A DNA stretch of 64,000 bases from Antitrichia curtipendula (Eukaryota; Streptophyta; Bryopsida; Hypnales; Leucodontaceae): NCBI GenBank assembly GCA_951230915.1, contig OX579639.1, forward strand, positions 11,222,001 through 11,286,000. The letters run 5' to 3'. The notes beneath the pieces were generated by a model. That model did not search any database and was not told the DNA's origin. It worked only from the letters and a program-made list of their open reading frames with translations. The first letter of the stretch is position 1. Every line of letters begins with the position of its first letter. Positions 2,308 to 61,504 of the stretch are shown here, piece after piece. Made by a program: the position numbers and the translations under genes.

Positions 2308-5300
2308 CCTTGAGTTTGAGGAAGGGCTACTTCCATCTGGGCCCTCCAGATGGTTGGATGGTTGAGATTTGGGGGGGGGGGGGGGTTCTGGTTCGTTGCT
2401 TGGCTTAGTAACTTGGTTGCTTGGGTGAGTTTCCAGATGCCCTGCCATGAACTGAATTGAATAAACTCATTCAATAAACTCTCTTGCTTGGTGGTTGCTA
2501 AACTTATTCTTAGCTAGCTAGACATGCTTGAATTGCTTGCAATGCTTATAACTTAAGTAGGACACAAAGTTAAATCCAGCCCACAAAGTGGGCTGAGGAG
2601 GATAGTTTTGGGTGGTTTTAGGGGGGTAAAAGTAAAAAAAAGCCCCCTATTTTGAGCCGTGTCTAGGATATGTTTTAGACCCCACCTAGCTATTTGGGGG
2701 CTCTAATTGCAAATATGAATTCAAAATTTGCAAAAAATAAAATAATGTAAAAAATAAAATAAATTTAGTGGTTTCTCCGGGGTTTAAAATCCTATTTTTT
2801 TACCCTTTATCAGACAGGTTTAGCATCCCACAACATTCTCATGTGATGAGGGTCACAATTTGATCATATTCAAAAGGATCCTCCTCTCCAATCTCTCTCA
2901 AAGAATTTGTTGTGAATTTTTATAATACATTCTGTAGATCCCCTAATTGGCTTATAATTTTGATATTTTGTGTGGATATTTTGAGGCTTTTTGAATGATT
3001 TTGTTATGTTTGTTTACCAATTTGGTGCTTTTGTACATACTTATAGCCAAGTTGGAGTGTATTTTTTAAAGTGATTTTTGAGTTTAAAGTCCAATTTGGG
3101 AGAATGAGTGGTCTGGGTTGCCAGTTGGAATCTGCCAAGTTGGGATTGTGAGTGAATGAAGTCTGAATAGAGTTCGAGTTAGATGACTAGTTTTCTGATG
3201 TGATGTGAGGATTCCGAATTGGAGGCTAACTGGTTTCAAGGTCGGGCAATTCCTATTTGGAAGTTTATTTTTACGGTTTGAGTCTGGCGATTTGGGAAAC
3301 TGCCGTCTAGCTCCTATTAGGTGGTCGTCTTCAATTTGGTTGGCACCCAATGTTGAATGTGTCCGCTGCGAGTCCCAGCCAAGTCGTACTGTGTATTTGT
3401 TTTTTTCGTATGTTTGTATGAATGTTTCTTGGTTATATGAGTGTCAAGCCGATTGTGTGCTTGTGTGTTTCCAAGTTGGAAATTTGTGTGTCCAAGATCC
3501 AAGGTGGGATCGTGCCTGTGTAAGTCCTATTCAGAAGATGAAGATGAAGGATTGTCCTGATGTTTCTTGTGGAGAGAAGACGGAAAAATCCAATTTGGAT
3601 ATATGGTAAAGGCAGAAGGTTTGAAGCCGAATTAGAAGTTTTTGTGCCGAAGCTTAAAGTTTTATCATGCGTGTGATTTATTTCCAAATTGGAAGTGTAT
3701 GCTGAGTGAATCAGTGTAGAAGCGAACTGTTGTGGAAACGGAGGAACAAAATAATGATTGCCAAATTGGTGTAGTAGTGATTCCAGCTTAAAGGAAGTAG
3801 CTGAGTAAAGAAGATGAGGAGAATTCAAGGGACAGTAGAATTGTAGAAATTCAAAGTCCAAATTAGGAAGATTTTTATAAGAATCAATTATGATGAAAAA
3901 GACATAAAAAATATGTAAACGGTGATTTTGATTACCAACTTGGATTAAAAGGAAGAAGATTCATATCCAATTGGTGTTGTTGTGGTGTGGAAATGATATG
4001 GATGATTGAATTATGAGTTAATCTGTGATTTTTTGTATGAAGTTCAAGTTGGTATATACGTGAGTCTAAATTATGGAGAAATTAAAAGGAAGTTAAGAGA
4101 GTGTATTCTTGCTGTTAAAATTATTCCAATTCGGTCTGAGAAGTTCAAGTGTTAAGCCGAATAGGAATTGTCGGAGTAATGTGATGACAGCAAAGTCCAA
4201 TTTGGAGTCAAAAGTATTCGTGATTGAATGTTTTCCAAATTTGTATTTTGAGAGTTTGCAATTGATTTGAAACGAGAAGAGATTTATAAGTAATTGGATT
4301 TAAGAAAGGTATAAAAAAAATTGGAGAGTAAAAAATACCAAGTTGGTGAAAGAAGACATGCTGTAAGCCAAGTTGGAGCGAAAGAATTAGTCAGAAGGAG
4401 ACGTTCCGTTTGGAGTTAAGCTGGGAGCTACTGAAGACCAATTTGGGAGTACAAGGCCGAACCGGTGCTGTCAAGACCGATTTGGAAAAAGATGAAAGAA
4501 TTCAACTGGAGAATTAAAGATGAAGTCCAATTGGGTGATATTTTTCCTTGGTGGTTTTTAAGAATGGAGTGTTAATAAATTTAGCAATTAGGTTGTGCAA
4601 ACCGTGAGGAATTAAATTAATTCAAGTTGGAAGTATGCCTTTCTCGGTATTTTATTTCCTATTTAGTTGTCTTTTGTCGTTGTAGAAGTAAGCCTATTTA
4701 AAAGACCTCCCTTGGAACGAACTTTACTATTGATTTAGAAATTCCCAAATAGGATCTAAATCTATCTACACATTCCATCCTCAAATTGTCAATACATTAA
4801 CCCTAAACCCCTAATGTATATTAATAAATGCATTTGGCATACTTGATATATCACATACATATCACTTAATATTTCACACGTAGTCATCATGATTTTAAGA
4901 TGTTTCTTTAAAGTATAAACTTTATCATCATTATGTTACTAATCCATAAATTTTCTATCTCTACTATGGTTTAAAAGATTTTCTCCAATGCTCTTGAATA
5001 TTCTTGAATGTTATTTTCTTCACATCTTAAGAGTACCTTTTCTTTGATTGATTCTTACTAAATTCCCTCGTACAATGTCAAATGTCCTCACTCTTTATAG
5101 TTCTATTTTAATATAATTAAACCATACTCCTAAAGTATATTAATAGTGGATGAGATAAAAATGCAAGATTAAAAATTTGAATAGTGCTATTCAATGGAGC
5201 CATTCAATTAATGAATTAAAAATGTGCATAAAATCACTACTCTTAGAATGTTACATTTCAACCCATCACAACAAATTTCATACATAGATTGCCAATATAG

Positions 5301-5903
5301 TATTCACGATCATTTTAAAATCGTAATGGAGTGGAATTCAAAAACTTAGTGATGAATGCGATTATATTTTCTCCATTCTGTCAATTGTGACTAATGTTTG
5401 TGACTTCTATTTAAGGAGTTAGTAAAATTAATCAAACTTGACATTTACTTTTAGGTTCCATGTCGAAACGACCATGTACCTAAACACAACATTGGAATAA
5501 TGAAAATTTGTACCCATTCAAAATTGATTTACATGCACTTTGAACACTATTGTCCTAATGCCAAACCATCTTGATGGATTTTCTTTTACGCAAAGTATTG
5601 GTGAATTGCAATCATTCATCTACTTATGATTAAAAAAATTTAGATTCAATTTTTTTCCAAACCTAGGTGATTGCAATCATAGATCCCATATGGATAAAAT
5701 TTAAAATTAGGAACGTCGAACTTTTATTTATACATGAAGTTAAATATATAATATTATTGTTTACATTGTATGAAAAAAAAATTCTCTTTATCTCATGAAT
5801 GTTGGAATGATTGACCAAAAGAACTTAATGTACAACATTGGAAAAAAAAAATTACATAATGTGCAACATTTCAACCTATGAAACTATCATCTCATTGGAT
5901 TCT
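2308..5903 (+). repeat. Left arm of giant inverted repeat (~3.6 kb)
   Basis: This arm is the reverse complement of 7381-10972. The match starts near the CCCTTGAGTTTG string at about 2308 and ends at ATTGGATTC near 5903. Predicted ORFs of 142, 134 and 88 codons in the two arms are identical in translation, so divergence is very low. The differences I see are mostly near the outer end, for example around 2320 and near 2755. No transposase or recognised domain is encoded. The outer 400 bp contains a copy of the CCCC...TTGAATTCATA MITE family also seen at 22086-22448. The arm may belong to a foldback transposon, a recent inverted duplication or a haplotype-joining error. The ORFs are not called as genes because they track the motif array and lack recognisable domains. 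Confidence 0.9.
3019..4755. repeat. Dense array of CCAANTTGG-like motif, left arm
   Basis: Roughly 33 copies of a degenerate near-palindromic element with consensus CC(A/G)A(A/T/G)TTGGA lie in about 1.7 kb, one per ~52 bp. Clear examples are near 3019, 3046, 3091, 3139, 3213, 3471, 3590, 3685, 3759, 3936, 4196, 4340, 4368, 4437, 4478, 4528 and 4622. The DNA between copies is not repeated, so this is not a simple tandem satellite. The inner arm (4760-5903) lacks the array. Confidence 0.75.
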
Positions 5904-7380
5904 AACCTAAGATTTTGTTTATTTCATGAATGTTGGAATGAATGTTACAACATCGAAGACTACTTGTACAAAAGAAGCACACAAGGGTAAAATTGCGAAA
6001 GCTTTGTAGAAGTCAATTTTCAAATTGTGAGGGGTTGGATATATTTTTCAATGGAGTTATTGTCATTGAGTGCCACAATTGCTAGTATTCAATGAAAAAA
6101 GAGGATTATAGTATTGCACCAGATACTCATGAATGTGAGGTTGACCAAGATGTGGAATTGTTCTTTAAGGACTTGAATATATATTAGGAAGGTGGATGCA
6201 AATTTGTTTAATTCAAATTGGTTGTTTTGTGTTATTCATTTAATGAAGGTTCAATTATAGCGGTTTTAACTGCTATTTTATTATGGTTATTGTATTTGCA
6301 TATATTATATTCAACATTTATATTATGTTTTCTAAATTTGCTTCAATCATATGTATGCATCATATATATACTCAAAGTTTTATGATATATGTGTTTATGG
6401 CAATTCCAATGTACGTTAGTGAGTATTATTTGAATATGTTCTAAAAATTTTAAGAATGTTCAAAGTTTGTTAATTCACATGTGACTAATGTCCCCAACCT
6501 GAAAAGTAGAGGGTACTCACATTAGCAAAATGTAAACTAATTTTTTTGAAAGTTCAATCTTATTTAAACATTGAAAGAAAAATGGAAGTGAACATTTAAA
6601 GTAAACACTGGAGATTGAATGTGCGTGCAATATGAATTTAGTTTAAAAGTGTAAAATGAACTCATTTCTAAAACCATTGTAAACATTAATTGGTAATTGT
6701 CTAAAAACTTTAAGCAATACCGAAACCTATTACCGGGAGCTATTATGAATTGATGTTTCTTTAAACATTTATTTATCTTNNNNNNNNNNNNNNNNNNNNN
6801 NNNNNNNNNNNNNNNNNNNNNNNNNNNNNNNNNNNNNNNNNNNNNNNNNNNNNNNNNNNNNNNNNNNNNNNNNNNNNNNNNNNNNNNNNNNNNNNNNNNN
6901 NNNNNNNNNNNNNNNNNNNNNNNNNNNNNNNNNNNNNNNNNNNNNNNNNNNNNNNNNNNNNNNNNNNNNNNNNNNNNNNGGAGATTGAATGTGCGTGCAA
7001 TATGAATTTAGTTTAAAAGTGTAAATGAACTCATTTCTAAAACCATTGTAAACATTAATTGGTAATTGTCTAAAAACTTTAAGCAATACCGAAACCTATT
7101 ACCGGGAGCTATTATGAATTGATGTTTCTTTAACATTTATTTATCTTCAAATCTAAATAGTACATATGTGTCATCTTCATTAAAAGACAAGCATAAAGTT
7201 GAATTTCAAATAAAATGCATAGATGTTTTTCAAATCGATTCATAGAATAAAACTTCATTCAATTCACTAAAATTACGATTTCGACACTTTCATTTATGTA
7301 ATTTTTTATGATTGGTTGAAATAGTAGTGAAGTGGTTTATTTGAGATTTTGTTTCGTAGAGGTGTCCTCAACTTTTCTTG
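5904..7380. other. Spacer of the giant inverted repeat, with assembly gap
   Basis: AT-rich spacer between the arms, without a supported gene. It contains the run of N at 6780-6979. The 170 bp before the gap (6610-6779) recur directly after it (6980-7147) with only two 1-bp homopolymer differences. Confidence 0.75.
6780..6979. other. Assembly gap of exactly 200 N
   Basis: A round-number run of N flanked on both sides by the same ~170-bp sequence. This is the expected signature of two overlapping contig ends that were scaffolded rather than merged. The true gap length is therefore probably zero. Confidence 0.9.
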
Positions 7381-10300
7381 AATCCAATGAGATGATAGTT
7401 TCATAGGTTGAAATGTTGCACATTATGTAATTTTTTTTTTCCAATGTTGTACATTAAGTTCTTTTGGTCAATCATTCCAACATTCATGAGATAAAGAGAA
7501 TTTTTTTTTCATACAATGTAAACAATAATATTATATATTTAACTTCATGTATAAATAAAAGTTCGACGTTCCTAATTTTAAATTTTATCCATATGGGATC
7601 TATGATTGCAATCACCTAGGTTTGGAAAAAAATTGAATCTAAATTTTTTTAATCATAAGTAGATGAATGATTGCAATTCACCAATACTTTGCGTAAAAGA
7701 AAATCCATCAAGATGGTTTGGCATTAGGACAATAGTGTTCAAAGTGCATGTAAATCAATTTTGAATGGGTACAAATTTTCATTATTCCAATGTTGTGTTT
7801 AGGTACATGGTCGTTTCGACATGGAACCTAAAAGTAAATGTCAAGTTTGATTAATTTTACTAACTCCTTAAATAGAAGTCACAAACATTAGTCACAATTG
7901 ACAGAATGGAGAAAATATAATCGCATTCATCACTAAGTTTTTGAATTCCACTCCATTACGATTTTAAAATGATCGTGAATACTATATTGGCAATCTATGT
8001 ATGAAATTTGTTGTGATGGGTTGAAATGTAACATTCTAAGAGTAGTGATTTTATGCACATTTTTAATTCATTAATTGAATGGCTCCATTGAATAGCACTA
8101 TTCAAATTTTTAATCTTGCATTTTTATCTCATCCACTATTAATATACTTTAGGAGTATGGTTTAATTATATTAAAATAGAACTATAAAGAGTGAGGACAT
8201 TTGACATTGTACGAGGGAATTTAGTAAGAATCAATCAAAGAAAAGGTACTCTTAAGATGTGAAGAAAATAACATTCAAGAATATTCAAGAGCATTGGAGA
8301 AAATCTTTTAAACCATAGTAGAGATAGAAAATTTATGGATTAGTAACATAATGATGATAAAGTTTATACTTTAAAGAAACATCTTAAAATCATGATGACT
8401 ACGTGTGAAATATTAAGTGATATGTATGTGATATATCAAGTATGCCAAATGCATTTATTAATATACATTAGGGGTTTAGGGTTAATGTATTGACAATTTG
8501 AGGATGGAATGTGTAGATAGATTTAGATCCTATTTGGGAATTTCTAAATCAATAGTAAAGTTCGTTCCAAGGGAGGTCTTTTAAATAGGCTTACTTCTAC
8601 AACGACAAAAGACAACTAAATAGGAAATAAAATACCGAGAAAGGCATACTTCCAACTTGAATTAATTTAATTCCTCACGGTTTGCACAACCTAATTGCTA
8701 AATTTATTAACACTCCATTCTTAAAAACCACCAAGGAAAAATATCACCCAATTGGACTTCATCTTTAATTCTCCAGTTGAATTCTTTCATCTTTTTCCAA
8801 ATCGGTCTTGACAGCACCGGTTCGGCCTTGTACTCCCAAATTGGTCTTCAGTAGCTCCCAGCTTAACTCCAAACGGAACGTCTCCTTCTGACTAATTCTT
8901 TCGCTCCAACTTGGCTTACAGCATGTCTTCTTTCACCAACTTGGTATTTTTTACTCTCCAATTTTTTTTATACCTTTCTTAAATCCAATTACTTATAAAT
9001 CTCTTCTCGTTTCAAATCAATTGCAAACTCTCAAAATACAAATTTGGAAAACATTCAATCACGAATACTTTTGACTCCAAATTGGACTTTGCTGTCATCA
9101 CATTACTCCGACAATTCCTATTCGGCTTAACACTTGAACTTCTCAGACCGAATTGGAATAATTTTAACAGCAAGAATACACTCTCTTAACTTCCTTTTAA
9201 TTTCTCCATAATTTAGACTCACGTATATACCAACTTGAACTTCATACAAAAAATCACAGATTAACTCATAATTCAATCATCCATATCATTTCCACACCAC
9301 AACAACACCAATTGGATATGAATCTTCTTCCTTTTAATCCAAGTTGGTAATCAAAATCACCGTTTACATATTTTTTATGTCTTTTTCATCATAATTGATT
9401 CTTATAAAAATCTTCCTAATTTGGACTTTGAATTTCTACAATTCTACTGTCCCTTGAATTCTCCTCATCTTCTTTACTCAGCTACTTCCTTTAAGCTGGA
9501 ATCACTACTACACCAATTTGGCAATCATTATTTTGTTCCTCCGTTTCCACAACAGTTCGCTTCTACACTGATTCACTCAGCATACACTTCCAATTTGGAA
9601 ATAAATCACACGCATGATAAAACTTTAAGCTTCGGCACAAAAACTTCTAATTCGGCTTCAAACCTTCTGCCTTTACCATATATCCAAATTGGATTTTTCC
9701 GTCTTCTCTCCACAAGAAACATCAGGACAATCCTTCATCTTCATCTTCTGAATAGGACTTACACAGGCACGATCCCACCTTGGATCTTGGACACACAAAT
9801 TTCCAACTTGGAAACACACAAGCACACAATCGGCTTGACACTCATATAACCAAGAAACATTCATACAAACATACGAAAAAAACAAATACACAGTACGACT
9901 TGGCTGGGACTCGCAGCGGACACATTCAACATTGGGTGCCAACCAAATTGAAGACGACCACCTAATAGGAGCTAGACGGCAGTTTCCCAAATCGCCAGAC
10001 TCAAACCGTAAAAATAAACTTCCAAATAGGAATTGCCCGACCTTGAAACCAGTTAGCCTCCAATTCGGAATCCTCACATCACATCAGAAAACTAGTCATC
10101 TAACTCGAACTCTATTCAGACTTCATTCACTCACAATCCCAACTTGGCAGATTCCAACTGGCAACCCAGACCACTCATTCTCCCAAATTGGACTTTAAAC
10201 TCAAAAATCACTTTAAAAAATACACTCCAACTTGGCTATAAGTATGTACAAAAGCACCAAATTGGTAAACAAACATAACAAAATCATTCAAAAAGCCTCA

Positions 10301-10972
10301 AAATATCCACACAAAATATCAAAATTATAAGCCAATTAGGAGATCTACAGAATGTATTATAAAAATTCACAACAAATTCTTTGAGAGAGATTGGAGAGGA
10401 GGATCCTTTTGAATATGATCAAATTGTGACCCTCATCACATGAGAATGTTGTGGGATGCTAAACCTGTCTGATAAAGGGTAAAAAAATAGGATTTTAAAC
10501 CCCGGAGAAACCACTAAATTTATTTTATTTTTTATATTATTTTATTTTTTGCAAATTTTGAATTCATATTTGCAATTAGAGCCCCCAAATAGCTAGGTGG
10601 GGTCTAAAACATATCCTAGACACGGCTCAAAATAGGGGGCTTTTTTTTACTTTTACCCCCCTAAAACCACCCAAAACTATCCTCCTCAGCCCACTTTGTG
10701 GGCTGGATTTAACTTTGTGTCCTACTTAAGTTATAAGCATTGCAAGCAATTCAAGCATGTCTAGCTAGCTAAGAATAAGTTTAGCAACCACCAAGCAAGA
10801 GAGTTTATTGAATGAGTTTATTCAATTCAGTTCATGGCAGGGCATCTGGAAACTCACCCAAGCAACCAAGTTACTAAGCCAAGCAACGAACCAGAACCCC
10901 CCCCCCCCAAATCTCAACCATCCAACCATCTGGAGGGCCCAGATGGAAGGAGTCCTTCCTCAAACTCAAGGG
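7381..10972 (-). repeat. Right arm of giant inverted repeat (~3.6 kb)
   Basis: Reverse-complement partner of 2308-5903. It carries the mirror-image motif array at about 8530-10265, here reading CCAAATTGG, CCAACTTGG and variants. The homology ends near 10972 at CTCAAGGG. I see no target-site duplication at the outer ends. No coding domain was recognised. Confidence 0.9.
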
Positions 10973-16161: not shown

Positions 16162-17577
16162 CTGTACAATTGGGTACAAAAACCTTACGAATTTTTGGCA
16201 TTCCCAGTGAAAGAAGTTCCACTGCTGCCAACTTTGACGCCCTCCCGAGGGTTGAAAGTTTGTTTTGTTGCCTTGAACTTCTTTTTATAAATTCATCTCT
16301 ATGTTAATAACATATGTGCAAAATTTCATGGCCAAAAGATTTACAAAAAAAAAGATATTCAAAGTCTACCAACATGTGTAGTTGCGAGAAAAATTTCACT
16401 ACTACCAACTTTGCCACCCTCCCAAGGATTGAGAATTTTTTTTTTTGCCATAAATTTTTTTACATGATATCCTGTCTATGTTGATAATATGTGTACCAAA
16501 TTTCAAAACCAAAAGATTTACACAAAAAAAGATATTTGAAATCTACCAACATAGGGAGTTGGAAAAACAATTTCACTACTACCAACTTTGCCACCCTCCC
16601 AAGGATTGAAAAAACTTTTTTTGGCATGAAATTTATTGTCATGGAAGCGTCTCCATGTTGATAATATGTGTGCCAAATCTCAAGTTCAAAAGACTCACAC
16701 AAAAAAATATATTTGAAATCTACCAACATAGGGAGTTGGAAGAGTGATTTCACTATTGCCAACTTTGTCACCCTCCCAAGGGCTGAAAAATTGTTTATTT
16801 ACCATGAAATTTCTGTCATGAGATCATCTCTAAGTTGGTGATATGTGTGACAAATTTCAAGTCCAAAACTTATACCAAGAAAAGGATATTTGAAATCTAC
16901 CAAGAGGTGTAGTTGTGAGAATGATTTTTTACATCCGTGTCAAACTTTAACCCACAAAATGACACTATAACAACTTAACAAGGGCTGAAAAAATCACTCT
17001 TCCAACTCCCTATGTTCATAGATTTCAAATATCTTTTTTTGCGTGAGTCTTTTGAACTTGAGATTTGGCACACATATTATCAACATGGAGACGCTTCCAT
17101 GACAATAAATTTCATGCCAAAAAAAGTTTTTTCAATCCTTGGGAGGGTGGCAAAGTTGGTAGTAGTGAAATTGTTTTTCCAACTCCCTATGTTGGTAGAT
17201 TTCAAATATCTTTTTTTGTGTAAATCTTTTGGTTTTGAAATTTGGTACACATATTATCAACATAGACAGGATATCATGTAAAAAAATTTATGGCAAAAAA
17301 AAATTCTCAATCCTTGGGAGGGTGGCAAAGTTGGTAGTAGTGAAATTTTTCTTGCAACTACACATGTTGATAGACTTTGAATATCTTTTTTTTTGTAAAT
17401 CTTTTGGCCATGAAATTTTGCACATATGTTATTAACATAGAGATGAACTTGTAAAAAAAAATTCAAACCAAACAAACAAACTTTCAACCCTCGGGAGAGC
17501 GTCAAAGTTGGCAGCAGTGGAGCTTCTTTCACTGGGAATGCCAAAAATTCGTAAGGTTTCTGTAGCCGACTGTACAA
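16162..17577. repeat. Foldback repeat built from ~175-bp tandem units
   Basis: The left arm (about 16162-16770) and right arm (about 16990-17577) are imperfect reverse complements. Each arm is made of diverged tandem units carrying CCAACTTTGNCACCCTCCCAAGG and ATATTTGAAATCTACCAACATA-like strings. ORFs here (for example 16460-16771 minus) only translate the same unit again and are not genes. The organisation resembles foldback transposons with satellite-like arms. Confidence 0.75.
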
Positions 17578-34656: not shown

Positions 34657-34679
34657 CATTAGAAGAAAATTCGGGTCTC
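34657..34679 (+). repeat. Left terminal inverted repeat of the 10.2 kb transposon
   Basis: 23 bp, CATTA followed by GAAGAAAATTCGGGTCTC, with an exact complement at 44843-44865. Confidence 0.9.
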
Positions 34680-35249
34680 TGGATGGCCGGTACTTTGGGC
34701 TTGAAAAATAATTTTTTGCTTTTTAGAAAATGGTCAATTCCAACATCATGGGTACTTGGCGCTTGTTGCCATCAAACCTGCACGCCAATGAGCTGTGGAC
34801 GGTACAGGTCGAGTTGTCACTGAAGCACTCAAGTGGCGCCTTGTTGTCAACAGCCGTGCACCAGGACTCTGTACAAACATTTGCCATGTTGGCAACTCAA
34901 CACTTGGGGCAATGAGTTTGGCACATAGATTAATATAGTTCGGTGACTATTTTAATGTTGACTGCGAGTACCAAATTGTGGATTATAATCTTTTAATCCA
35001 CGATTTGGAATTCTGATTTGGAAGCCACTATTTCCAATTAGTGTACTCAACATGTACAATCCAGTTGACGAGCGTGTGAATTGGGGGATGTGGGGAATGT
35101 CAACGTGGAGATGCTCGCAAGTTCTCAATTGTTGGAATTGCTTCCCGCCAAATGAGCTGGCCTCATTGCCGTTGCCAACAGGCTCATTGGCATCCCTCAA
35201 CTGGTTTTGGGGTGGCTTTGGCACACGATTTGAGAGATTTCGGTTTAGG

Positions 35250-38200
35250 ATGGCACTTCAGGACATTACCAATGTTGGAAAGGGTAGTTCGTATACAGCA
35301 GCTGTTATATTGGATAGTAAATTCGCCCCTATTGTGAGGAAAGGGGTTCGAATTGATCAGCAAGCCTCAAAAGCAGAGTTTCCAGCGTTGAGAGATTCTG
35401 GAGCCACCAACATTGATTTATGGTTGGATGGCAATTTGTACCCAACAGATCCTGTCACAGGGAAGCCACCACCGTTTCAAACAATCAAGAGTTGCTTAGA
35501 ATTTGTGTGTCACGGTGACTCTGGACTCCTAGGATATTCTAGAAACCTTGTTAGCACCTGTGACTCAATAAAAGGCTTGGAAAGGCAATTACAGGAGACA
35601 CAAGCTGATGCAATTCGGAAGAGGGAAGCCTTGCAAAATTCCATTGCGTTACTAACGCAGGATCTGGACGTTGCCAACAGTAGCTGGGCACAACGTTCAG
35701 AGGAACTTGTTGCAAGAAGTAAAGAGGAGATTGACACTTTGAAGAGCGGTTTAGACTTCTTTAGGGCTCGATGTGTAGCAGTCGAAGAAGAGTTGCACAG
35801 GAATGAGGACCAACACAACAACAACTTGCAGTTGGCGAACGAACAAGGACGACAAGGTGCGCATCAGAAGGTCTTGCAGTTGGAGCATGAACTCATGGAA
35901 GCAAGAAAGTCCATAGTGAAATTCCAAAGGAAAATGGAAAGAATGGTCAGGACTCCAGCAGGACCACAACTAAGACCATCGAAGGGCCTCGTTGAATTAG
36001 CGAAGAGTGGTGGCGCGTCGAGGGCTCGTATAGCCAAAATTCGAAGTTTGTTGCAACCGCAGGTAGTTCAAGCTATACACGCTGGCAACAGGACGTCTAA
36101 CAGAAGGAAACGTCTGTGTGGCGACAAGGATACCCAAGATGAGACCGGGCAGGCGATTGGACTATTGATGTCAAAGGGAGAGACGCTGGCGTTGATATCA
36201 AGTTCGCAACATAGTCATGCTGCAACCAGCATGACGAACCACTACCTTGAGAAAATTGGGACGGAGTTGGGAACAGAAGCAATACTAGCAGCGTGCGATA
36301 TGACTGGAGTGTCACAGAAAGGATATGGTGAGATCTACAAGACGATCAAAGGGCGAGTGCAGCTCGTTGACAAACGCTTGAAGCCAACATTCTTGCCAAA
36401 CCCGCACAAGGTTTGAAGTTATTATTCCCATTCCATGAATTTTGGCTATGCATTGTTGGAAACGAGTTGGGCTTACATTCAAAGTAGAGCGTATTGCTAT
36501 GCCTTGTTGGAAACGATGGAAAATTTCAATATAGGACATACTGGAGGGTTCTTGCATTAGCCTAGTCGATCGGAGCATTGGAAAACAGAATTATAGCAGG
36601 GGCCCCATAAACGCTGCTAGAGGGAGGGTGGTAACGTGTTTGCAGTCGCAAAACCTGGTTTAGGGTTCAGGGTTCTGGGCGATTTACATAACTTCAATAA
36701 GGAAAATCTTGTTTCCAACGGCATGTTAGTGGTGGGTTTAGGCTTACGTGGTGTTCTCACAATATGGACTATGTTGAACAGGTCAGTTTGTTGCGAACAG
36801 AACTCAATTCAAAGTTGACGGATCTTGTTGGCAACTATTACCATATTGACAGTACGTTGGAGTTGGTGGTGCAACCTTCAGTTACCACTGGAAAAGGAAG
36901 AAAGAAGAAATCAGACATATCAAGGGTGGTTCTAACGCCCAAGAATTCTTTGTTTGTTGACATCGAAGTGGTGCAGAGGACTATGGTGAAGCTATACCAA
37001 TTCACGACCGAAGGTGAATATCCTTCTTTTCAAAACATTCCTGTTCAAACGGTACTTGTTTCCAACGTGATTTCTTATTGACTTCTGTACATCAAGCGGT
37101 GTAGGGTGCTCTGACGTTGGAAACTGAACCTGCATGTCCAGAAGTTGGAAACAAGCCTTTAATTTTCGTCTTGAAGATGGACGAAGCAGAGATTGTACAT
37201 GGGAGAAAATTCGAAAGGGTGAGTTTGACGCTCATGAATCGTGCATTAGACACCAGCATACAAAAAACAGATGATAGATATTTTTCAGTCCAATCGGAAA
37301 CCGAAATCTGGCCTATCGCATGCTTTGAGGTGGCCAAGGAGTCGTATGAAGTTCTCCACTGGGTGTTCCAACAAACTCAGTTCCCTACACTCATCAAAGC
37401 GCAAGATGAGGGTCAACTGTTAAGAGTTGAGGGTGTTGGAGACTTCAAAGTAGAGTGGCATTTGTCAGCTGACATGAAGACAATTAAGTGTTTGTATGGG
37501 CTGAAGCATGGAGCCAACGCGATACACTCATGCATTTACTGTAACCAACAGCGGACAAAACCAGTGCTGGGAACAGCCGCGTCTGCTGCTACAGAGGCTA
37601 GGCGGAGAAAACATACATGGCATGGAGGTTTATTTGCTGGCAACGTGCAATGTAAACCGCTCGCCACTGACAGAGAATCACGGTGGAAGCCTATTCTACC
37701 CATTCCACTTGAGAGGGTACATATTTGTACCTTACATGCGTTAACTCGAATGATGGAGAAAATTCTTCACCTCCATTTCATGTTCATTTGGAACATGAAG
37801 AATGAGGAGCGTCAGCAACAAGCCATAGAGAATATGGAGAAGACTCTGTCAGCAGCTGGTCTTCACGGTGGAAACGTCCGCATCATGAAGGACCCAGTAC
37901 TCAGTGGCGCTTCCAACAGTGTCCCCATCAAACCCTCCCTCAGTGGTGTGACTGCAACTAGGATGTTCCAACCATCGACTTGGTCAGGGCAAGATCGAGT
38001 ATGGAAGGATGTCTTGCGCTCAGAAAATAACACTCTTCAACAAGGGAGGCAATATCTAGACAGGGTGGAAATGTGGCAGGCGTTGGAAACAGTGTTCCCT
38101 TATTTGGTTGGCCTTTCCTTGGATCAAGAGCAAAGGGAGACTTTCAAAGGTAAAATTGAGAGATGGGGGAGCCTCTACTTGAAATGCTTCGGGGAAGACC

Positions 38201-38797
38201 ATGTGACTCATTATATGGTGAGTACCGTCTATTGCCAACGTACATCTGCAGTTCAAAGTCAATGTTTGCCGTCATGTGGGAAGTTCATTTGACAAGCTTA
38301 GGGGGTCCAGGGTGTGATGGTATGTGAACTTGACACATTTCATGGCATCTCGTTTCACGCAGTGCAACATTTTTACACGTACTTCTACTAATTCCTTGAA
38401 TGCTGTGATTTGCTAGCATAATCTGGTGCGCCATGGTCCTTGGTATGTGGAAACGTATGGAAGTCTCGCTGTTTGGAACAACCAGGGCATGGAAAAATCT
38501 CATCACGCAGCTAAGGCTGCTAATCAGCATCACACTCAACATGGAGGCACTAAAGAGAGAACAAGCTCCATTGTTCAGCAATACCAACATTGGTACAGAA
38601 ACATACAACACAGGTTTGCCAAGCAGGAACGACTGAAGGACGTTGCCAACGCGACATCGATGGAAGATGATGCCCAAAGAACGGCAGCGACAACAAGAAA
38701 GAGGACGGCCTACAACACGTCAAATGCAATGGATGCAGCTAGAATCTGGAGGGAAGGTAGATCACGAGTAGGCCGTGCTTGGGTGGCGACGTCTTGA
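35250..38797 (+). CDS. DDE-type transposase-like protein with coiled coil (4 exons, 974 aa)
   Basis: Exons: 35250-36410, 36782-37051, 37105-38217, 38417-38797, all GT/AG and phase 0. The N-terminal exon has a long coiled coil (about residues 107-240) and then a GYGEIYKTIKG region ending in LPNPHK, which joins exon 2 at VSLLRTELN. Exon 3 has a candidate first catalytic Asp (KMDEAE, D503), a second Asp (LSADMK, D600), a zinc-binding pair HSCIYC (C620, C623) and the conserved-looking RVHICTLHALTRMMEKILH block. Exon 4 has WNNQGMEKSH, giving a candidate catalytic Glu874. The order D, D, CxxC, H-rich block, E fits an RNase H-fold cut-and-paste transposase with a zinc insertion; the residue assignments are mine. 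It would bind the element's ends and excise it. An in-frame Met at 35052 would add 66 residues. A GTTGGAAAC site overlaps exon 3's start. Confidence 0.75.
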
Positions 38798-39742
38798 AAT
38801 GGAGGGTGTAGCAAACAGCGGCACCATTTCCATAGCAACAGAGTTTAGGCCGTTGGCAACGACGGTGGCTGAGGTTTATTTAACGAGGCCACATACCAAT
38901 GTACTTAGTGGCGCTTCCATGTGTAGAAGTTAGAAACAAGCCTTTGAATTTACACCATAGTGTTTTTTTACTACAATATCCACTCATGGAAGGATTCTGC
39001 AAGTTTTTTTAGGTATCATTCACTTTTTCGGATAAAATCACTATAAACCACCAATTTTCACAGCAAGCGGAAAAATTTCCACATCAGAAATGTAAAGTTT
39101 GTACTGCCCAAATTTTGTTGCCAACAAATTGTCAAATGTACCCATTTTGATCCCACAGACCTAGGCAATTTTAATGCTTAAGAGGGACCCTAAACCGAAA
39201 ACCCTAAACCAAGATTCTAACCCCTAAACCCACGACCCTAGAAATTTGTGATCTCCTGTTGGCACCGTGCTTATAAAATAAAATGACTGGGTTCCTAGAG
39301 AAGTACCAGCTTCTCTTGCTGGGGTCCATGATGTGCCAACAGGAGACACTATGAGGCTCGTATAGCACTCCACAAAATTAGGCCATGATGGAAACAAGTT
39401 GCCATCAATGGATGAGGGAATCATAAGATACTGACCATAATGTAACGTCCCAAACACTCAATTAGGGCCTAAAGCGACATCTAATCATTAAGCTCATTGG
39501 CTCGTTGGCAACAGGAGGCGGCTGTGCCATCATGGAGCACGTTGGGAGTTACTGGCGTCATAAGCAAGGCACTTGCCCCATAAACCCCCAGCCTCAGGCA
39601 CAAGTGAAACTTCAAAGTACTTCTACGTTGCCATTGCTCTCTCTCTCTCTCTCTTGTGCGAGTTTCGCGCTGTTGGTTACACATTCCAATTGCACTTCTT
39701 CTCTCCTGTTGTCTTTGCAGCAGGTCAATTGTAGGTCTCACC
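38798..39742 (+). other. Intergenic part of the transposon between genes 1 and 2
   Basis: Contains GTTGGMAAC copies at 38852, 39117 and 39504, degenerate CCCTAAA-type strings at 39188-39225, and a (CT)n microsatellite at about 39637-39655 directly upstream of gene 2, probably in its leader. Confidence 0.5.
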
Positions 39743-41961
39743 ATGAGCGCGTCAAGCAGGAAAGCTCGTTCGAAAAGCGTTGTCAAAGGCAAAGCTCTCA
39801 TGGCGGCAGTGTTGGCAGAGTCTGCTCCTCCCCAGAAGCACCAAGTGCTTCTCCCCACCGATCCGGGATGGGGAACGTGGGAGGTTCCATTGGATTTAAG
39901 CGGGCTTCCACCAGCGTTGCAGAAGAGGCTGGTGACGTTGGCACCGTGCTTGTTGGGGAGGCACAAGGCGGTGTATGACGCAGAGTTCTTCCACAGGGTT
40001 TACGGATTGTGCAAAGAAGGGATCATGCCCAAGGAGGTGACGGAGGCTATGGTTCCCTCCTACATGTACGAGTCCATCTGGGTTCCTGGCGAGGGGTTGA
40101 ACAGGACACGGTACTGCTTGGACAAGTGCAGAGACCTCAATTCGCGGGATCTATACCTTCGGATGTACATGAGGGTTTATGGCGATGCACCTGACAACAA
40201 AGCCTTCAGCCAAACATTCTTGCGCGCGTGTGTGTACTTCTACAAGGAGGGGCGCAGGAACAAGGTGAATTGGGCAGCGGCTGCGGCCCAATTGACTGAA
40301 GAACGACTCGCTCATCCGGGCCTGAATCCCCTGAAATTGGGCCCTCCAGCATTGAGGGAGCAGATGTGGTCCATTCTGAAGGAGTTCCGGCTGTATTTCC
40401 AAAAGGAAGTTGGACTTCGGCCCGCTGGAAGCGAAGTTGGGCGCGAGGAGCAGGAGCAGCGAGAAGTTGAGGCCGTTGGCAACACTGACGGCGTTGACAA
40501 TGTTGGGAACAAGGTGGCCGCGCTGGAGAAGCAGATGAAAGAGAAGTCGGAAGACGTCAAGGGCAAATCCAAGTGCATTTCCCGATTGCGAGGTACCTTA
40601 AAGGGACTGGAAGGCACAATCTTCACGTTGGAAGCAGAAGACGAACGCCTCAACTCTGTGAAGGATTTCTTGCGGAGGCGGAGTAGAGAGCTTGCGGCAG
40701 CAGGGAACCTGTATGACAAGGCAACGGTGGACAAGGAGCAGCGGGAGGTGTGCAAGGACATCACTGCCAACAACGACAAGTTGGAGGAAGTTCAAGATTC
40801 GGTCCTTGAGAAGTCCAAATGCCTTAAGGAACTGGAGGAAGCCTTCAGGTTGAGCGAGGAAGGACTGGGGGATCTCCAGAAGCAGTTGGCAACAGAGAGA
40901 GCAAGCCAGTATTCCATCAAGCCGAAGAAGTTGGCTGACGACAAGGCGTTGGAAACGGGTGTCAAGCCAGTTCTTGAAGTGGATTCACCCTGCGGCTTGT
41001 GCTCTCAACTGTTTGTTTCCAACGGTGCTGTGCCCTTCTCATGTGGTTGCCTGTTTCACCCATGGTGTTTGTGGTCTGAACTTCTTTCGGGGAGTCGGGT
41101 GTGTCCAAGGTGCAAGAAAGGAGGTGACCGTCAGTGGCTGGAAGCATGGGGCTTTGACGCGTTGGAAACACAGATCCCGACTTGTGTTGGCGAGAATGAG
41201 GTTCCGCGTGAGGGGGCTTCTTATGGTGTCAGCATTCGGAAGAGGGAAGCCTCTGTGATCCCTGAAGGTGAAATAGCTCCGAAGTTGTTAAAGACACCGC
41301 TAGGTGCATCACCCTTGGCTGGTAAGGCCCAGCATTCAGTGCTCTCTCCTGTTGCTCCTAGAGAATACGTTTGGGCACTTCCTTGTTTTGCATTCAGGCG
41401 AAAAGGATCTCCTTATACAGAAGCGGTTGACGCAGCCGTGCGAGACTTAGCCTTTCACAGTACGTTTCTGGTAGCGTAATGTACTATATGCACTTAGTTG
41501 GTAATTGTCACTCAAATTTATAACACAACATCTGTAGTTCAAACCTTTGCTCTTCTCTTTTGTATTGTTGGAATTCTGTCTTTTCTTTACAATGTTGTGG
41601 TAATATTCATGTGGGATGTGCTCTGTTTCCAACAGCAAATGAAGCAGTAGCTGCAAGCAGAGGGGAGACGAAGCCCGAAAGAAGACCACCTTTGCCGCTC
41701 GAGGACAACAACAAAAGCAAAGCTCCCATGCCTTCAGATTCGGGGGCTGCTGCCAACGCGACCCCGTTGGCACCGACAGATGGGGCGGAGGCGGAGTTGG
41801 CAACGTCGCGTGAACCTCCCGCAGTGGGCCCGCCTGCCGCACCAGTGCACGTCGATCTTTCATCTGAGGGTGGATCTGCTGGCAGGCCTCAGGCAGCGGG
41901 TTCGTCATCCATAGATTCGGCGGATGCAGAAGTTTTGGATGCGCTTGTAGACCAAATTTGA
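39743..41961 (+). CDS. Coiled-coil and RING-like zinc protein of the transposon (2 exons, 680 aa)
   Basis: Exons 39743-41459 and 41636-41961. The donor reads ACA|GTACGT and the acceptor AACAG|CAAATG; the phase is consistent. The intron's acceptor lies inside a GTTTCCAAC motif. Residues 50-225 form an aromatic- and Arg-rich domain I do not recognise. A coiled coil spans about 255-390. A RING-like cluster follows: C417-x2-C420-x13-C434-x-C436-x2-H439-x2-C442-x11-C454-x2-C457. The C-terminal ~110 residues are acidic, Ala/Pro-rich and disordered-looking. The RING-like fold suggests ubiquitin or SUMO ligase activity or protein interaction; neither is shown. It is a candidate accessory or anti-silencing factor of the element. 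A Met at 39656 would add 29 mostly hydrophobic residues; I prefer 39743 (context TCACCATGA). Confidence 0.7.
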
Positions 41962-42833
41962 TTTTTTGTCGTGTTTAGAAGCGCCTTCTGTACATCAAGC
42001 TAGTGTAGGCAGTAGTAGACGTTGGAAACAGTGGATGTTTAGCAGGCCTACACTTGAAATGGCACTGATGGGTTTTTGAGGACAGTCATAGGAAGCAGAA
42101 ACTTCTTTCCATCATTTTTGTTCACCTGCCTTTCACGAATATGAAAATTCTGCATTTCCGCATATTTTCATTGTGATTTTGCATTCATTAGTTCTTCAAC
42201 TCTCTCGCAAGTTTTCGGTACCCATCTCTGTTGTCAACATGTTTTGTATGAATGCAGTTCCCTTCTGTGATTTGCCCTTGTTTACACACGCCATATGACT
42301 TAGATGGACGTGTACAAAAGAAAGCATTGTTGGAACAGGAAGTCACGAGTCATGATAGAGTTAGAGGAAATGAGAGTCATCTTGTTTCCAACGCAGTCAT
42401 TGTGAAGTTGTTGCCTCATTTTGTCAAATGTACAATCACCGTGATGTAATGGAACTCCTCTTGTTTCCAACACAGTCACAAACACCATAAACCGAGTGGC
42501 AACCAAGTCTGAAACACGTCCCAAACATGAGGAGTTCTTTTGTTTCCAACACAGTCATTTCTCATCATGAACCGAGTGGCAACCAAGTCTGAAACACGTC
42601 CCAAACACGAAGGTAACTATCAACGTCCAATTTTTTTTTTGATTATCAAAATTCAGCCTTACAGTGTTTCCTATGACGGTTGTTGCTTACACATAAGTCC
42701 TTATCTAACTCTATATCATCCTAAACCGACTTGTTTCCAACGTGACGTTGAAAGAGGCACCTGTAGGAATGTAAGTGCTAAAATGTCTCAAAACTGACAT
42801 TGATAGTTCTCTAAACTAACCATGCTCTACCAC
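41962..42833 (+). other. Intergenic part of the transposon between genes 2 and 3
   Basis: Holds motif copies at 42021, 42384, 42463, 42542 and 42733, all but the first as GTTTCCAAC. Two ~45-bp direct repeats, with CAACACAGTCA and AACCGAGTGGCAACCAAGTC, start near 42467 and 42546. The ends of genes 2 and 3 converge here. Confidence 0.5.
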
Positions 42834-44839
42834 TTAGTTGGTAATTGCCACTATCTCCAACGTCCACGGAGGAAGGACATCTGCTACCCTGTTGGCACCC
42901 TCCTGCCTCTGGTTTACAAGGATGTCTGCAAACCCTTGCTGACGGACAGAGAAGCGGAAGTCTTCTGGAACCACACCTCCCAAGGTGATATCCACCTCTC
43001 TGCGAATGTGTGCCAACGGCCATGTTCGACCCACCTGGAACCTTGCCACCGTCACACCTTCAAACAAACATGGGAGGACCACCATGTCCTCCTCCTGCAC
43101 TTCGTCTATCTGTTGCCAACTAACACCATCTGGCGCCAGACGCTCTCGGCCGTACTTGAAATTTGTGTACAACGTTGCTCGCCCAACATGGTATCTACAG
43201 CACACCCGACACGTCTAAGAAAGGTTGTTTTCAACGTTCGCAACAATTCACAAGCACCCTACACCCTAAAACACTCTCAATGGCACATGCAACAGTCTGT
43301 TGGCAACAAAAGTCTCCTTACCTGAAGGCTACAGTGTCCATTGAGATTGTGCACCTGACAATGTCCTTGCCGAAGACTACTTTTTGATGCCAACCTGCGT
43401 CCATGAGGCTCGTGAACAACTCATCGGAGGGGCTGTTGACAACGTACAGGACGGCAGTGCGTCTCATCCTCTCCTCCTCACACGCAAAAAGATCTACAAA
43501 TACATGCAAGGGCATAAACCACTGGAGGTGGCCCATGCGGCTTCCAGTGGTGGCCTTGGTGACAGCTTGGAAATCGGCCCGAAGCTTGAACCGAAACGCT
43601 TCACTGGTGTGCATGTCGGGGAGAGGCCATTCGGGATCAGTGAAAGGTGGCAACGACAGTGGCTCAACTGATCCATATAGAAGCCCTGGTGTAGGTGGCA
43701 CATAGACAAGGTTAGAAAAAAATATCCCATTCTCCAGAAGCTCATTGTAGGACCTCCCATTCCGAGTGGCTTCACCAATTTCGCTGTGCACAACAACGAT
43801 GACTCCAAGGATAGAAAGTGGGTCCACCCAGTCTTCAAAAAAGGATTGGTACAGAACTGTTTCCAACAGACAATACCACAAACCAAATTAGCAAAGCAGT
43901 GTAAAGCCCCAGCCACGTTTACTTTGATGGCCATCAAACTTTCAAGAACAACATGGCATCAAAGGTGGAAACAAAGCGCCATCTATTCTCACAATTGCAT
44001 GGAACCCGATCGTGGCGAATCTCTGGATCTAAGAGCACTTGATGCCGGTGGTAAGCATGTCTAACCAACACGGACTCCAATTCCGGCTTGTTGGAAACGG
44101 TCTTGCGCCCATCAAACTTGAACCGGAAGTCCATGATTTGAGCCTTGTAAGATCCCCTCATGCTCTCACCTCCATGCCGACGAGCCTCTCGAGCCCAAGT
44201 TCCATTTCTACCAGGGTTCAACCTCACCCACGACAACCTCTCGTATCTCGTTGGAATCCACTCTCCCTGGTTATTGTGTGTGTTGTGGAGCGTCACTGCT
44301 GCCACCTCCGAACGCGGTCTGCGATTCTCCATTCCTGATGACGTTGCCAACGCACAATTGATCACCTAACACTTGTTGGAAACGAGTTGCCAGTGATCAC
44401 ACAATTTGGGCAGCACTCGACAACACTGGCATCCACACAATTCATGGAACTACAATGCATGGAACTGTGACATTGAACGAGTGACGCGTTTGGACCCATT
44501 CTGAAATTGGAGCTCAGCCAATTCCGTGCCAAGTTTGAAATTCCCTCCAAGTTGTCAAACACATCGCATCATTGACAACAATGCGCGGCTCCACTACCGG
44601 TCCGCATGCGGGACTAGTCCCTGCGTTTGGTACGCCCAATTGGAAATTCGTTTTATAACCCTACACACAGGACAGGGGACAACGGTACGCCAATAAAATA
44701 TTGTTTCCAACGCGTCACTCCCATTGGTAGCAACGGGTGCTAAATCCCTCGTCATCACCTTATACTCCACGTTGGCAACGTGCAAGGTGGCATTTTCAGC
44801 AATTTCCAAGCACGAAAATTGCGTTGCCAACTTAGGCAT
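42834..44839 (-). CDS. Unrecognised protein of the transposon (4 exons, about 482 aa)
   Basis: Proposed exons, 5' to 3' on the minus strand: 44660-44839, 43993-44365, 43322-43856, 42834-43194. Junction phases agree, and the last intron is the clearest (CAG|GTAAGG donor, restoring an Arg codon). The first two introns are less certain; CCT|GTGTGT is an alternative donor for exon 1. The protein has a CPVC pair near the end of exon 1, a basic region in exon 2 (RRPRSE; RHAYHRHQ) and an alpha/beta-looking remainder with no domain known to me. Its ATG lies 4 bp inside the right terminal repeat, so its leader must include the terminus or start downstream. A DNA-binding or anti-silencing role is possible by analogy with the third genes of other large transposons, but the sequence does not show it. 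Confidence 0.5.
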
Positions 44840-44842
44840 CTG

Positions 44843-44865
44843 GAGACCCGAATTTTCTTCTAATG
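44843..44865 (-). repeat. Right terminal inverted repeat of the 10.2 kb transposon
   Basis: Exact complement of 34657-34679. The last GTTGCCAAC copy (44823-44831) lies 11 bp from its inner edge. Confidence 0.9.
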
Positions 44866-60305: not shown

Positions 60306-60530
60306 TGATCTACCTTTTTTTTAGATATTTGAAATTCAGATCTGCCTTTTTTCTAGATATTTGAATTTCATATCTACCTTTCTTTTAGATTTTAGAATTT
60401 CAAATCTCCCTTTTTTCTAGATATTTGAATTTCAGATCTACCTTTTGTCTAGATTTTAGAACTTCAAGTCTATTTTTTTTCTAGATTTCAAAAATTTAAG
60501 ATCTACCTTAATCCTAGATTTCAAAAATTT
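60306..60530 (+). repeat. Minisatellite of ~40-bp TCTACCTTTTTTCTAGAT units
   Basis: Five to six imperfect units of AGATCTACCTTTTTTCTAGA plus TATTTGAATTTC lie in tandem within the CACTA element. Confidence 0.7.
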
Positions 60531-60629
60531 AGATATTGATATTTAGTAGATTTCATTGGTTTAGGAAACCTTACAATTTTATAGATTTTAAAATTTCTTG
60601 AATTTTAAATATTTTCTTATTTTCTATAG

Positions 60630-60730
60630 ATTATAGAAATCTACAAATTGTAGAAATCTATAGATTATAGAAATCTATAGATTATAGAAATCTATAGATT
60701 ATAGAAATCTACAAATTATAAAAATCTTAG
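60630..60730 (+). repeat. Tandem TATAGATTATAGAAATC repeat
   Basis: About five units of a 17-bp AT-rich repeat within the CACTA element. Confidence 0.7.
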
Positions 60731-61504
60731 AATTAAATCAAAATAATTGACTGCATAAGACTACAACAACTTACAAGTCTTATATGTCCAACCTAATAAT
60801 ACTCTTTACAATTGATATGGGACAATTGATATAGTGGCATATTGACATATAGTGGCATATTGCGATTCACCATGACTCCATCGTGACTCACTTCTAAACC
60901 GCAGACACGTCAGCACAACATAATCCACGTAGGCAACATGAAATTGGCTCCAAAATTGCCTTTAGAGAATTTCCAGTCATAATGCAGTTGTAGCTTAGTG
61001 ACACCAAGTCCTAAAATATCACTTTCACCTTCACAGCAGGAAAAGAAATGAGCCGGGAAAGAAAACACGCATACAAACTTAGCTTTTCTTTCCATTCTTC
61101 ATCCCCCAGTCGCGTCCGTGACTTCAGGGTGACTGGGATCTGATCCACAAAGGGCATCGAGTGCAATTAGAGAGGGGCAGTTGCGGCCACGACTGCAGTT
61201 CCGGATTCCCGTGACTTTGCAGTCATTTTTACCCCCATTTTCTTGTAGTGAATATAACATCCAAGTTCTTTTATTTGAAGTCTACAAAAATTTGTCTTCT
61301 AAAATCATGAAAACATCACATAAAACACGGGGTTCTTAAAGTGATTGTACTCCCTCCTGGCAATGGCCCTTTTTTTTTGTCTCTCATTCAATCCTCAAAA
61401 CTCATCGACATCCAAGTCAATGGCATCAAAACCCTCAAAAGACTTCCAATACTTTACTTTCAACAAATGCGTGAAGGTGATGTGGTAGTCCAAATACCAC
61501 CCTT

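Follow-up and report, generated by a model that had tools for sequence, protein, structure and literature searches.

Why would a transposon of ten kilobases carry the same nine-base word dozens of times, inside its genes as well as between them? The question arises in a stretch of 64,000 nucleotides from the moss Antitrichia curtipendula, C7:11222001-11286000 of a genome of 400.19 Mb in 303 contigs. This whole stretch is called the window here. At window positions 34657-44865 it holds a DNA transposon with three genes and 36 exact copies of GTTGGMAAC. We argue that this word appears to be selected, including within exons. Going by its counts and placement, we predict with high confidence that the 36 words are a selected binding site.

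The enrichment is established by exact counting. The window has 37 copies of the word and 36 of them lie inside the element, 19 on the plus strand and 17 on the minus strand, from 34888-34896 at the left to 44823-44831 at the right. The remaining one is at 45674. The initial annotation, which was made from the sequence alone, gave at least 36 inside and noticed the one outside. Dinucleotide shuffles of the window (n = 100) contain 1.40 copies on average and never more than 5. The same annotation proposed that a similar density across the genome would undo its reading. The word occurs 8,660 times in 400.19 Mb, or once per 46.2 kb, which is far below the density in the element; a reversed-pattern control occurs 8,184 times. 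At the genome-wide rate 0.22 copies are expected in the element, so the enrichment is 163-fold and not over 200-fold as first estimated. Under a Markov-2 model built on the element, 0.71 copies would be expected against the 36 observed.

The word is also strict. Its commonest form, GTTGGAAAC, is found 20 times in the element and nowhere else in the window, and GTTGSCAAC is found 16 times inside and once outside. Single-mismatch variants occur only 0-4 times each. The preceding base is never G, and the following base is never C and is A or G in 33 of 36 cases, which gives YGTTGGMAACR. Sites are 284 bp apart on average with no periodicity by eye. A palindrome on GTTG-S-CAAC, suited to a homodimer, was considered. 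It was rejected because the commonest form is not palindromic and GTTTSAAAC occurs once, so the motif was kept as GTTGGMAAC.

One can imagine that the words have no function and result from local duplication, mutational bias or biased composition. One local duplication was seen among the sites: three repeats spaced 79 bp apart at 42364-42557 (no strand assigned) hold one site each, at 42384, 42463 and 42542. Elsewhere the sequences around the sites look unrelated to the eye, and the Markov-2 expectation already argues against composition. The use of both strands, the unrelated flanks and the sharp base preference imply a site that is read in DNA, neither an RNA signal nor a copied repeat.

The exons provide another line of evidence. 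Coding blocks were drawn by hand over 5,855 bp, and in gene C they differ slightly from the exon bounds finally adopted. They hold 12 sites, and the remaining 4,354 bp hold 24, a density 2.7 times higher. Copies in exons had been noticed at the outset, and the excess is real: permuting synonymous codons gives an expectation of 1.09 sites in place of 12. None of 2,000 permutations reaches 12, and the maximum is 5. This nearly refutes the absence of function, which we consider hardly credible. The site at 37144 reaches into the protein. The element has GTTGGAAAC there, encoding VGN. Related loci, called cousins here (12 loci, L027-L038, of about 4 kb each with 73-88% transposase protein identity), have GTTGGAGAC, encoding VGD, in 11 cases and GTTGGGGAC in the twelfth. 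A single base creates the site and alters the protein.

The element itself was called a complete DNA transposon from the start, and the evidence supports a complete and recently mobile one with three genes. It is 10,209 bp long, without assigned strand. Its perfect 23-bp terminal inverted repeat (TIR), also seen initially, has the left arm CATTAGAAGAAAATTCGGGTCTC at 34657-34679 on the plus strand and the right arm at 44843-44865 on the minus strand. An inverted-repeat analysis of the window nests this pair in 29-bp arms of 93% identity. The termini begin CATTAG, and the terminal sequence is identical at every copy end read, save one end of L048 that is cut by an assembly gap. No target-site duplication (TSD) flanks the 13 insertions that were read at both ends, or one tandem pair at its outer flanks; one of these has a 3-bp junction match and the rest have 0-2 bp. 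At L045 and L060 (C10:7.22 Mb) the insertion flanks resemble mutually inverted copies by eye, CAACAATCTTGAATTAAGTCA and CAACAATTTTGAAGAACTCA, as if the insertion went into a hairpin-prone site. This is not general among the copies.

Recent mobility is established by the near identity of these copies. A search of the genome with the transposase exon gives at least 110 matches, including at least 18 at 100%. For gene B there are 18, at 99-100%. Gene C has 19, the extra one at C6:3664411 being without a listed gene A. Besides the window's copy, 14 of the 18 were fetched as 10-kb stretches and three on small contigs were seen as 4-kb loci. The set compared here is the window's copy and 12 of those fetched, which differ from it by 1-30 single-nucleotide polymorphisms (SNPs) over 9.79 kb. 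Each of the 13 has 32 or 33 sites in this first 9.79 kb. L048 and L049, a pair at C7:3.42-3.44 Mb, were left out. They are tandem copies 9,045 bp apart with a gap of 200 N between them, and one is without its first 1.36 kb. This arrangement may be an assembly artefact, and it was dropped as a hint of replication because the gap falls at the junction. Several loci contain plant-telomere-like ACCCTAAAC words, which together with the intron-rich genes point to a land-plant host.

The cousins share the word. From L027 to L038 in order they have 6, 5, 2, 3, 3, 5, 5, 3, 3, 5, 0 and 2 sites, 42 in total. Thus 11 of the 12 are enriched, with 2-6 sites per 4 kb against 0.09 expected. The locus with none in its 4 kb is L037, which has 73% identity and contains stops. 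Alignable cousin DNA is about 75-86% identical to the element in the main stretches, and the sites turn over within it. At 35670, 37144 and 38082 the cousins are often one base short of a site. The reverse is true of element position 3253, where the site is found in nine cousin loci and the window element is a base short. This implies that single substitutions make or break sites while their number stays high. Four of the 42 cousin sites are common with the window element, 10 align to non-sites and 28 are in unalignable DNA. The cousins also have 4-14 one-mismatch words per 4 kb against 35 in the 53.8 kb of window background, so some of their sites may be decaying.

It is worth considering what the genes encode. 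The initial annotation saw three spliced open genes, and this is confirmed by open frames that fit the splice signals and by homologues that match the exons. Gene A is on the plus strand. Its first exon (35250-36410) is coiled-coil-like by eye and has an inferred start codon. Its second (36783-37013) has a splice-consistent frame, and both are joined by P0019, which is continuous across exons 1-3. Exon 3 (37142-38217) is the transposase core, supported by homologues, motif positions and RAG1 fold. It contains D at 37180-37182, D at 37471-37473, CxxC at 37531-37542 and HxxxxH at 37720-37737. In an alignment of 53 members the first D is present in 45 of the 46 rows without a gap there, the second D in all 53, the two C in 52 and 51, and both H in all 53. 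The stretch NNQGMEK of exon 4 (38417-38797) supplies what is presumably the third acidic residue, E at 38492-38494, and 12 of 13 other scanned loci have a similar stretch (L032 is the exception). From the order of the motifs, D, D and E are probably the catalytic triad. The CMCT pattern is present, in which C(2)C and H(3-4)H stand between the second D and the E of an acidic triad, and a fold test places gene A with RAG1-type proteins. Both its fold and its motifs make gene A a transposase. None of the 53 alignment members matches any Pfam transposase family at E-values up to 1, and neither KDZ nor MULE models match the genes or the alignment members.

Gene B (39743-41479, plus strand), drawn from homologues and a profile, has a coiled coil followed by a RING-type finger at 40991-41113. 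Eight zinc ligands, C417, C420, C434, C436, H439, C442, C454 and C457, are invariant in 3 of 3 rows with RING-like spacing. Its profile matches RING2 (E 0.0038), and the Pfam RING models match it weakly and below the cut-off (E 0.046 and 0.23). On this evidence gene B carries a RING finger. Weak Pfam matches to LcrV and P10 were dismissed, as both are within the coiled coil. Gene C is on the minus strand, convergent to gene A. Its exons are 43940-44332 (boundaries inferred), 43322-43860 (matched by homologues, with a provisional acceptor) and 42834-43194 (an open frame, with homologue C-termini similar by eye). The N-terminal half, from exon 1 and the start of exon 2, is possibly BAH-like; the fold hints come from the homologue P0112. 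A Pfam scan of the three genes gave nothing above the cut-off.

The three genes are linked in distant families too. Identity to the window element is 88% for A, 54% for B and 80% for C in the family at C3:20.13 Mb, and 59%, 35% (residues 44-219) and 53% in the family at C7:13.84 Mb. Gene B is the most diverged in both. There are also two-gene families, which have A and C and in which no B was found. A diverged gene-B-like stretch (26-34%) is found in opposite orientation beside cousin transposases at C4:30014999-30016270, C4:29538133-29539461 and C8:8008338-8009618, as if this subfamily had two B genes. Seven gene-C-like places have identical scores (47%, a frame of 274 amino acids with one stop) and no listed transposase nearby: C3:78952, 142615, 154857 and 179477, C1:41003316 and 41042776, and C7:22562104. 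Could these be a repeat that carries gene C alone?

Since gene A is a transposase, the main rival is that the sites serve transposition. A subunit or an accessory protein, B or C, would join the ends, or the sites would give target immunity against self-insertion. Some plant elements do bind accessory proteins at subterminal repeats, as En/Spm does with TnpA, and some sites here are near the ends (34888 at the left, 44771 and 44823 at the right). However, the sites occur all along the 10 kb without crowding at the ends and are in excess in the exons, and end synapsis needs neither. Placement along the whole length fits coating better than end recognition. We consider the transposition scenario unlikely, although its target-immunity version escapes the objection about end synapsis.

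What we propose instead is that the 36 words would be bound by a single sequence-specific protein and maintained along the entire element by selection. The likeliest source of this reader is the element itself, a claim that we hold as probable. The first candidate would be gene B, the coiled-coil RING protein that diverges fastest in the families compared, and the second would be gene C, the possibly BAH-like one. The reader would coat the element, genes included, and recruit or expel chromatin factors. Silencing could then not spread and the transposase gene would stay expressed, in the manner of the anti-silencing by VANC proteins. Taken whole, an element-encoded reader with an anti-silencing benefit in a transposon of RAG1/Transib fold is an account to which we would give not quite an even chance.

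A host protein might read the word as well, either a transcription factor or a chromatin-boundary protein, with the sites gathered for tissue expression or openness. So short a word could be imagined to contain half sites of known factors from plants or animals. Another repeat family also gathers a word, a different one (C1:401-406 kb; window 3.0-10.3 kb). This is CCAASTTGG, of which each site reads on both strands. It occurs 6,111 times in the genome against 1,757 for the reversed control (3.5-fold) and is clustered among the first places listed, with 14 in C1:401162-405747 for example. Within the window, 3017-4438 and its inverted copy 8836-10257 each contain CCAANTTGG 13 times, and the remainder contains it once. 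It is held in a 3.6-kb inverted duplication of 99.8% identity (2307-5902 and 7380-10972) around a gap of 200 N. The repeat has at least 56 matching places in the genome, and no gene was found for it. Dispersed words may thus be a wider habit of the repeats of this genome. For GTTGGMAAC, however, the genome-wide excess over the reversed control is only 476, and the 18 family copies would hold about 650 by extrapolation, so the word shows no wider use. A promoter function would also leave the sites throughout the exons unexplained. A host reader seems to us a little less likely still than a role in transposition. The window further contains tandem arrays at 16220-17519 and 60307-60731, with a unit of about 177 bp (two blocks, apparently mutually inverted) and units of 32 bp and 17 bp.

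Several results weigh against a selected word read by a protein of the element. Among the 13 young copies 2 of 71 SNPs hit motif bases against 2.2 expected, which is no depletion. Sites of the window element are retained in 4 of 75 aligned comparisons with the cousins (36455 in L027, L032 and L036; 38082 in L038), no better than their surroundings, as 81% identity alone would give about 11. The cousins have fewer sites than the window element, and nine of the 12 look like one subfamily and are hence not independent. With 28 of the cousin sites in unalignable DNA, the case for independent gain is weaker; nor are the changes between cousins polarised in direction. Neither gene B nor gene C has a known Pfam DNA-binding family above the cut-off. 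The initial annotation also named relatives with the genes and without the word as grounds for rejection. The outcome is mixed: 11 cousins are enriched, but L037 and L059 have no site in the DNA read. L059 is a 59% relative with all three genes (gene B at C7:13845915, gene C at C7:13849053), and has no GTTGGMAAC in the 7 kb read, outside of which the ends of genes B and C lie. It has 10 one-mismatch words there against about 4.6 expected from the window background. Nor do these 7 kb hold a comparable word of its own; the best is GCKGCAGCA, 8 against 0.2, which is perhaps codon-driven. As far as these loci show, the word is a feature of one clade and not of the whole gene family.

The last such result concerns methylation. 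C>T SNPs in the 13 young copies affect 18 of 712 CG, 8 of 776 CHG and 13 of 3,135 CHH positions. This bias is the mark of copies that are or were methylated, and it is as compatible with an arms race as with failed protection. It would also suit a host that recognises the element by the word and silences it. Selection should remove such a tag, yet the word is in excess in the exons and is present in most cousins, so we regard this as very improbable. CpG depletion was tried as a test of protection and was uninformative (0.66 in the element, 0.53 and 0.63 in the flanks).

A bolder scenario is that transposons in this genome use point mutation to write 9-bp codes, dispersed and specific to each family, into their own DNA, exons included, and that self-encoded readers treat each element as a unit. 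GTTGGMAAC in the RAG1-fold family and CCAASTTGG in the other repeat family would be two such codes. This includes a convergent, VANC-like self-recognition outside the MULEs, with codon choice and protein sequence bent to the code. We offer it tentatively, as somewhat more doubtful than the account of the single element.

How does the element compare with known systems? Among the titles listed in an open-access literature search, none described it. The text available of PMC12730594 describes the CMCT clade (EnSpm/CACTA, Mirage, Chapaev, Transib, Plavaka and RAG1) by an acidic triad whose second D is separated from the E by C(2)C and H(4)H. It gives EnSpm CAC ends and 3-bp TSDs, and treats Zisupton/KDZ as DNA transposons of eukaryotes that are able to carry genes related to chromatin, with 8-bp TSDs in Zisupton. 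The present element shares this triad with its intervening motifs, the RAG1 fold and termini starting CA with the CMCT clade. It differs from EnSpm/CACTA in having CATTAG termini in place of CAC, no 3-bp or other TSD, and no Pfam transposase match. Transib has 5-bp TSDs and CAC-type ends, and neither was found at the element's ends and insertions. The element resembles Zisupton/KDZ as a eukaryotic DNA transposon of a type that can carry chromatin-related genes, but the insertions read have no 8-bp TSD and there is no KDZ Pfam match. In layout only, it is like the RAG1/RAG2 type: a RAG1-fold transposase, a convergent partner gene C and an element-encoded RING finger. RAG1 carries a RING and RAG2 is a kelch protein. 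Here the RING is on a separate protein, the partner is perhaps BAH-like and not kelch, and the ends are unlike recombination signal sequences. The element thus adds a RAG1-fold lineage with no Pfam match, no TSD, a RING-finger partner and perhaps a BAH-like one.

The closest precedent found is VANDAL, as the initial annotation suggested, with VANC proteins that bind its words and remove DNA methylation from their own family. VANDALs have a MULE transposase and a TSD of about 9 bp, whereas this element has the CMCT residue pattern, the RAG1 fold, no MULE Pfam match and no TSD. It is not a member, but may work similarly. As far as the available text of PMC5735166 goes, a VANDAL is a multi-gene DNA transposon with a variable non-transposase protein, and its family-specific words of 8-9 bp (YAGTATTAY; AGTTGTCC/AGTTGTAC) are dense within it and sporadic elsewhere; VANC21 reads YAGTATTAY in VANDAL21 of Arabidopsis. 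An element-specific short word at high density and rare elsewhere is what we find here, and to this extent the parallel stands. VANC words are described as being in one orientation, noncoding and spread by tandem repeats (PMC5735166 and PMC10398659, in the parts available). The parallel fails there, since the present sites are dispersed and single, divided 19/17 between the strands, in coding blocks in 12 of 36 cases, and made or broken by single substitutions. In the literature found, the Arabidopsis VANDALs are described as having a transposon protein that counteracts silencing in a sequence-specific way (the same two papers, as far as available). The near-identical copies and the named candidate readers make our proposal directly testable. 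If it is true, a second and unrelated transposon has an exon-filling word, which would suggest that codes for self-recognition arise again and again in evolution and can prevail over codon choice.

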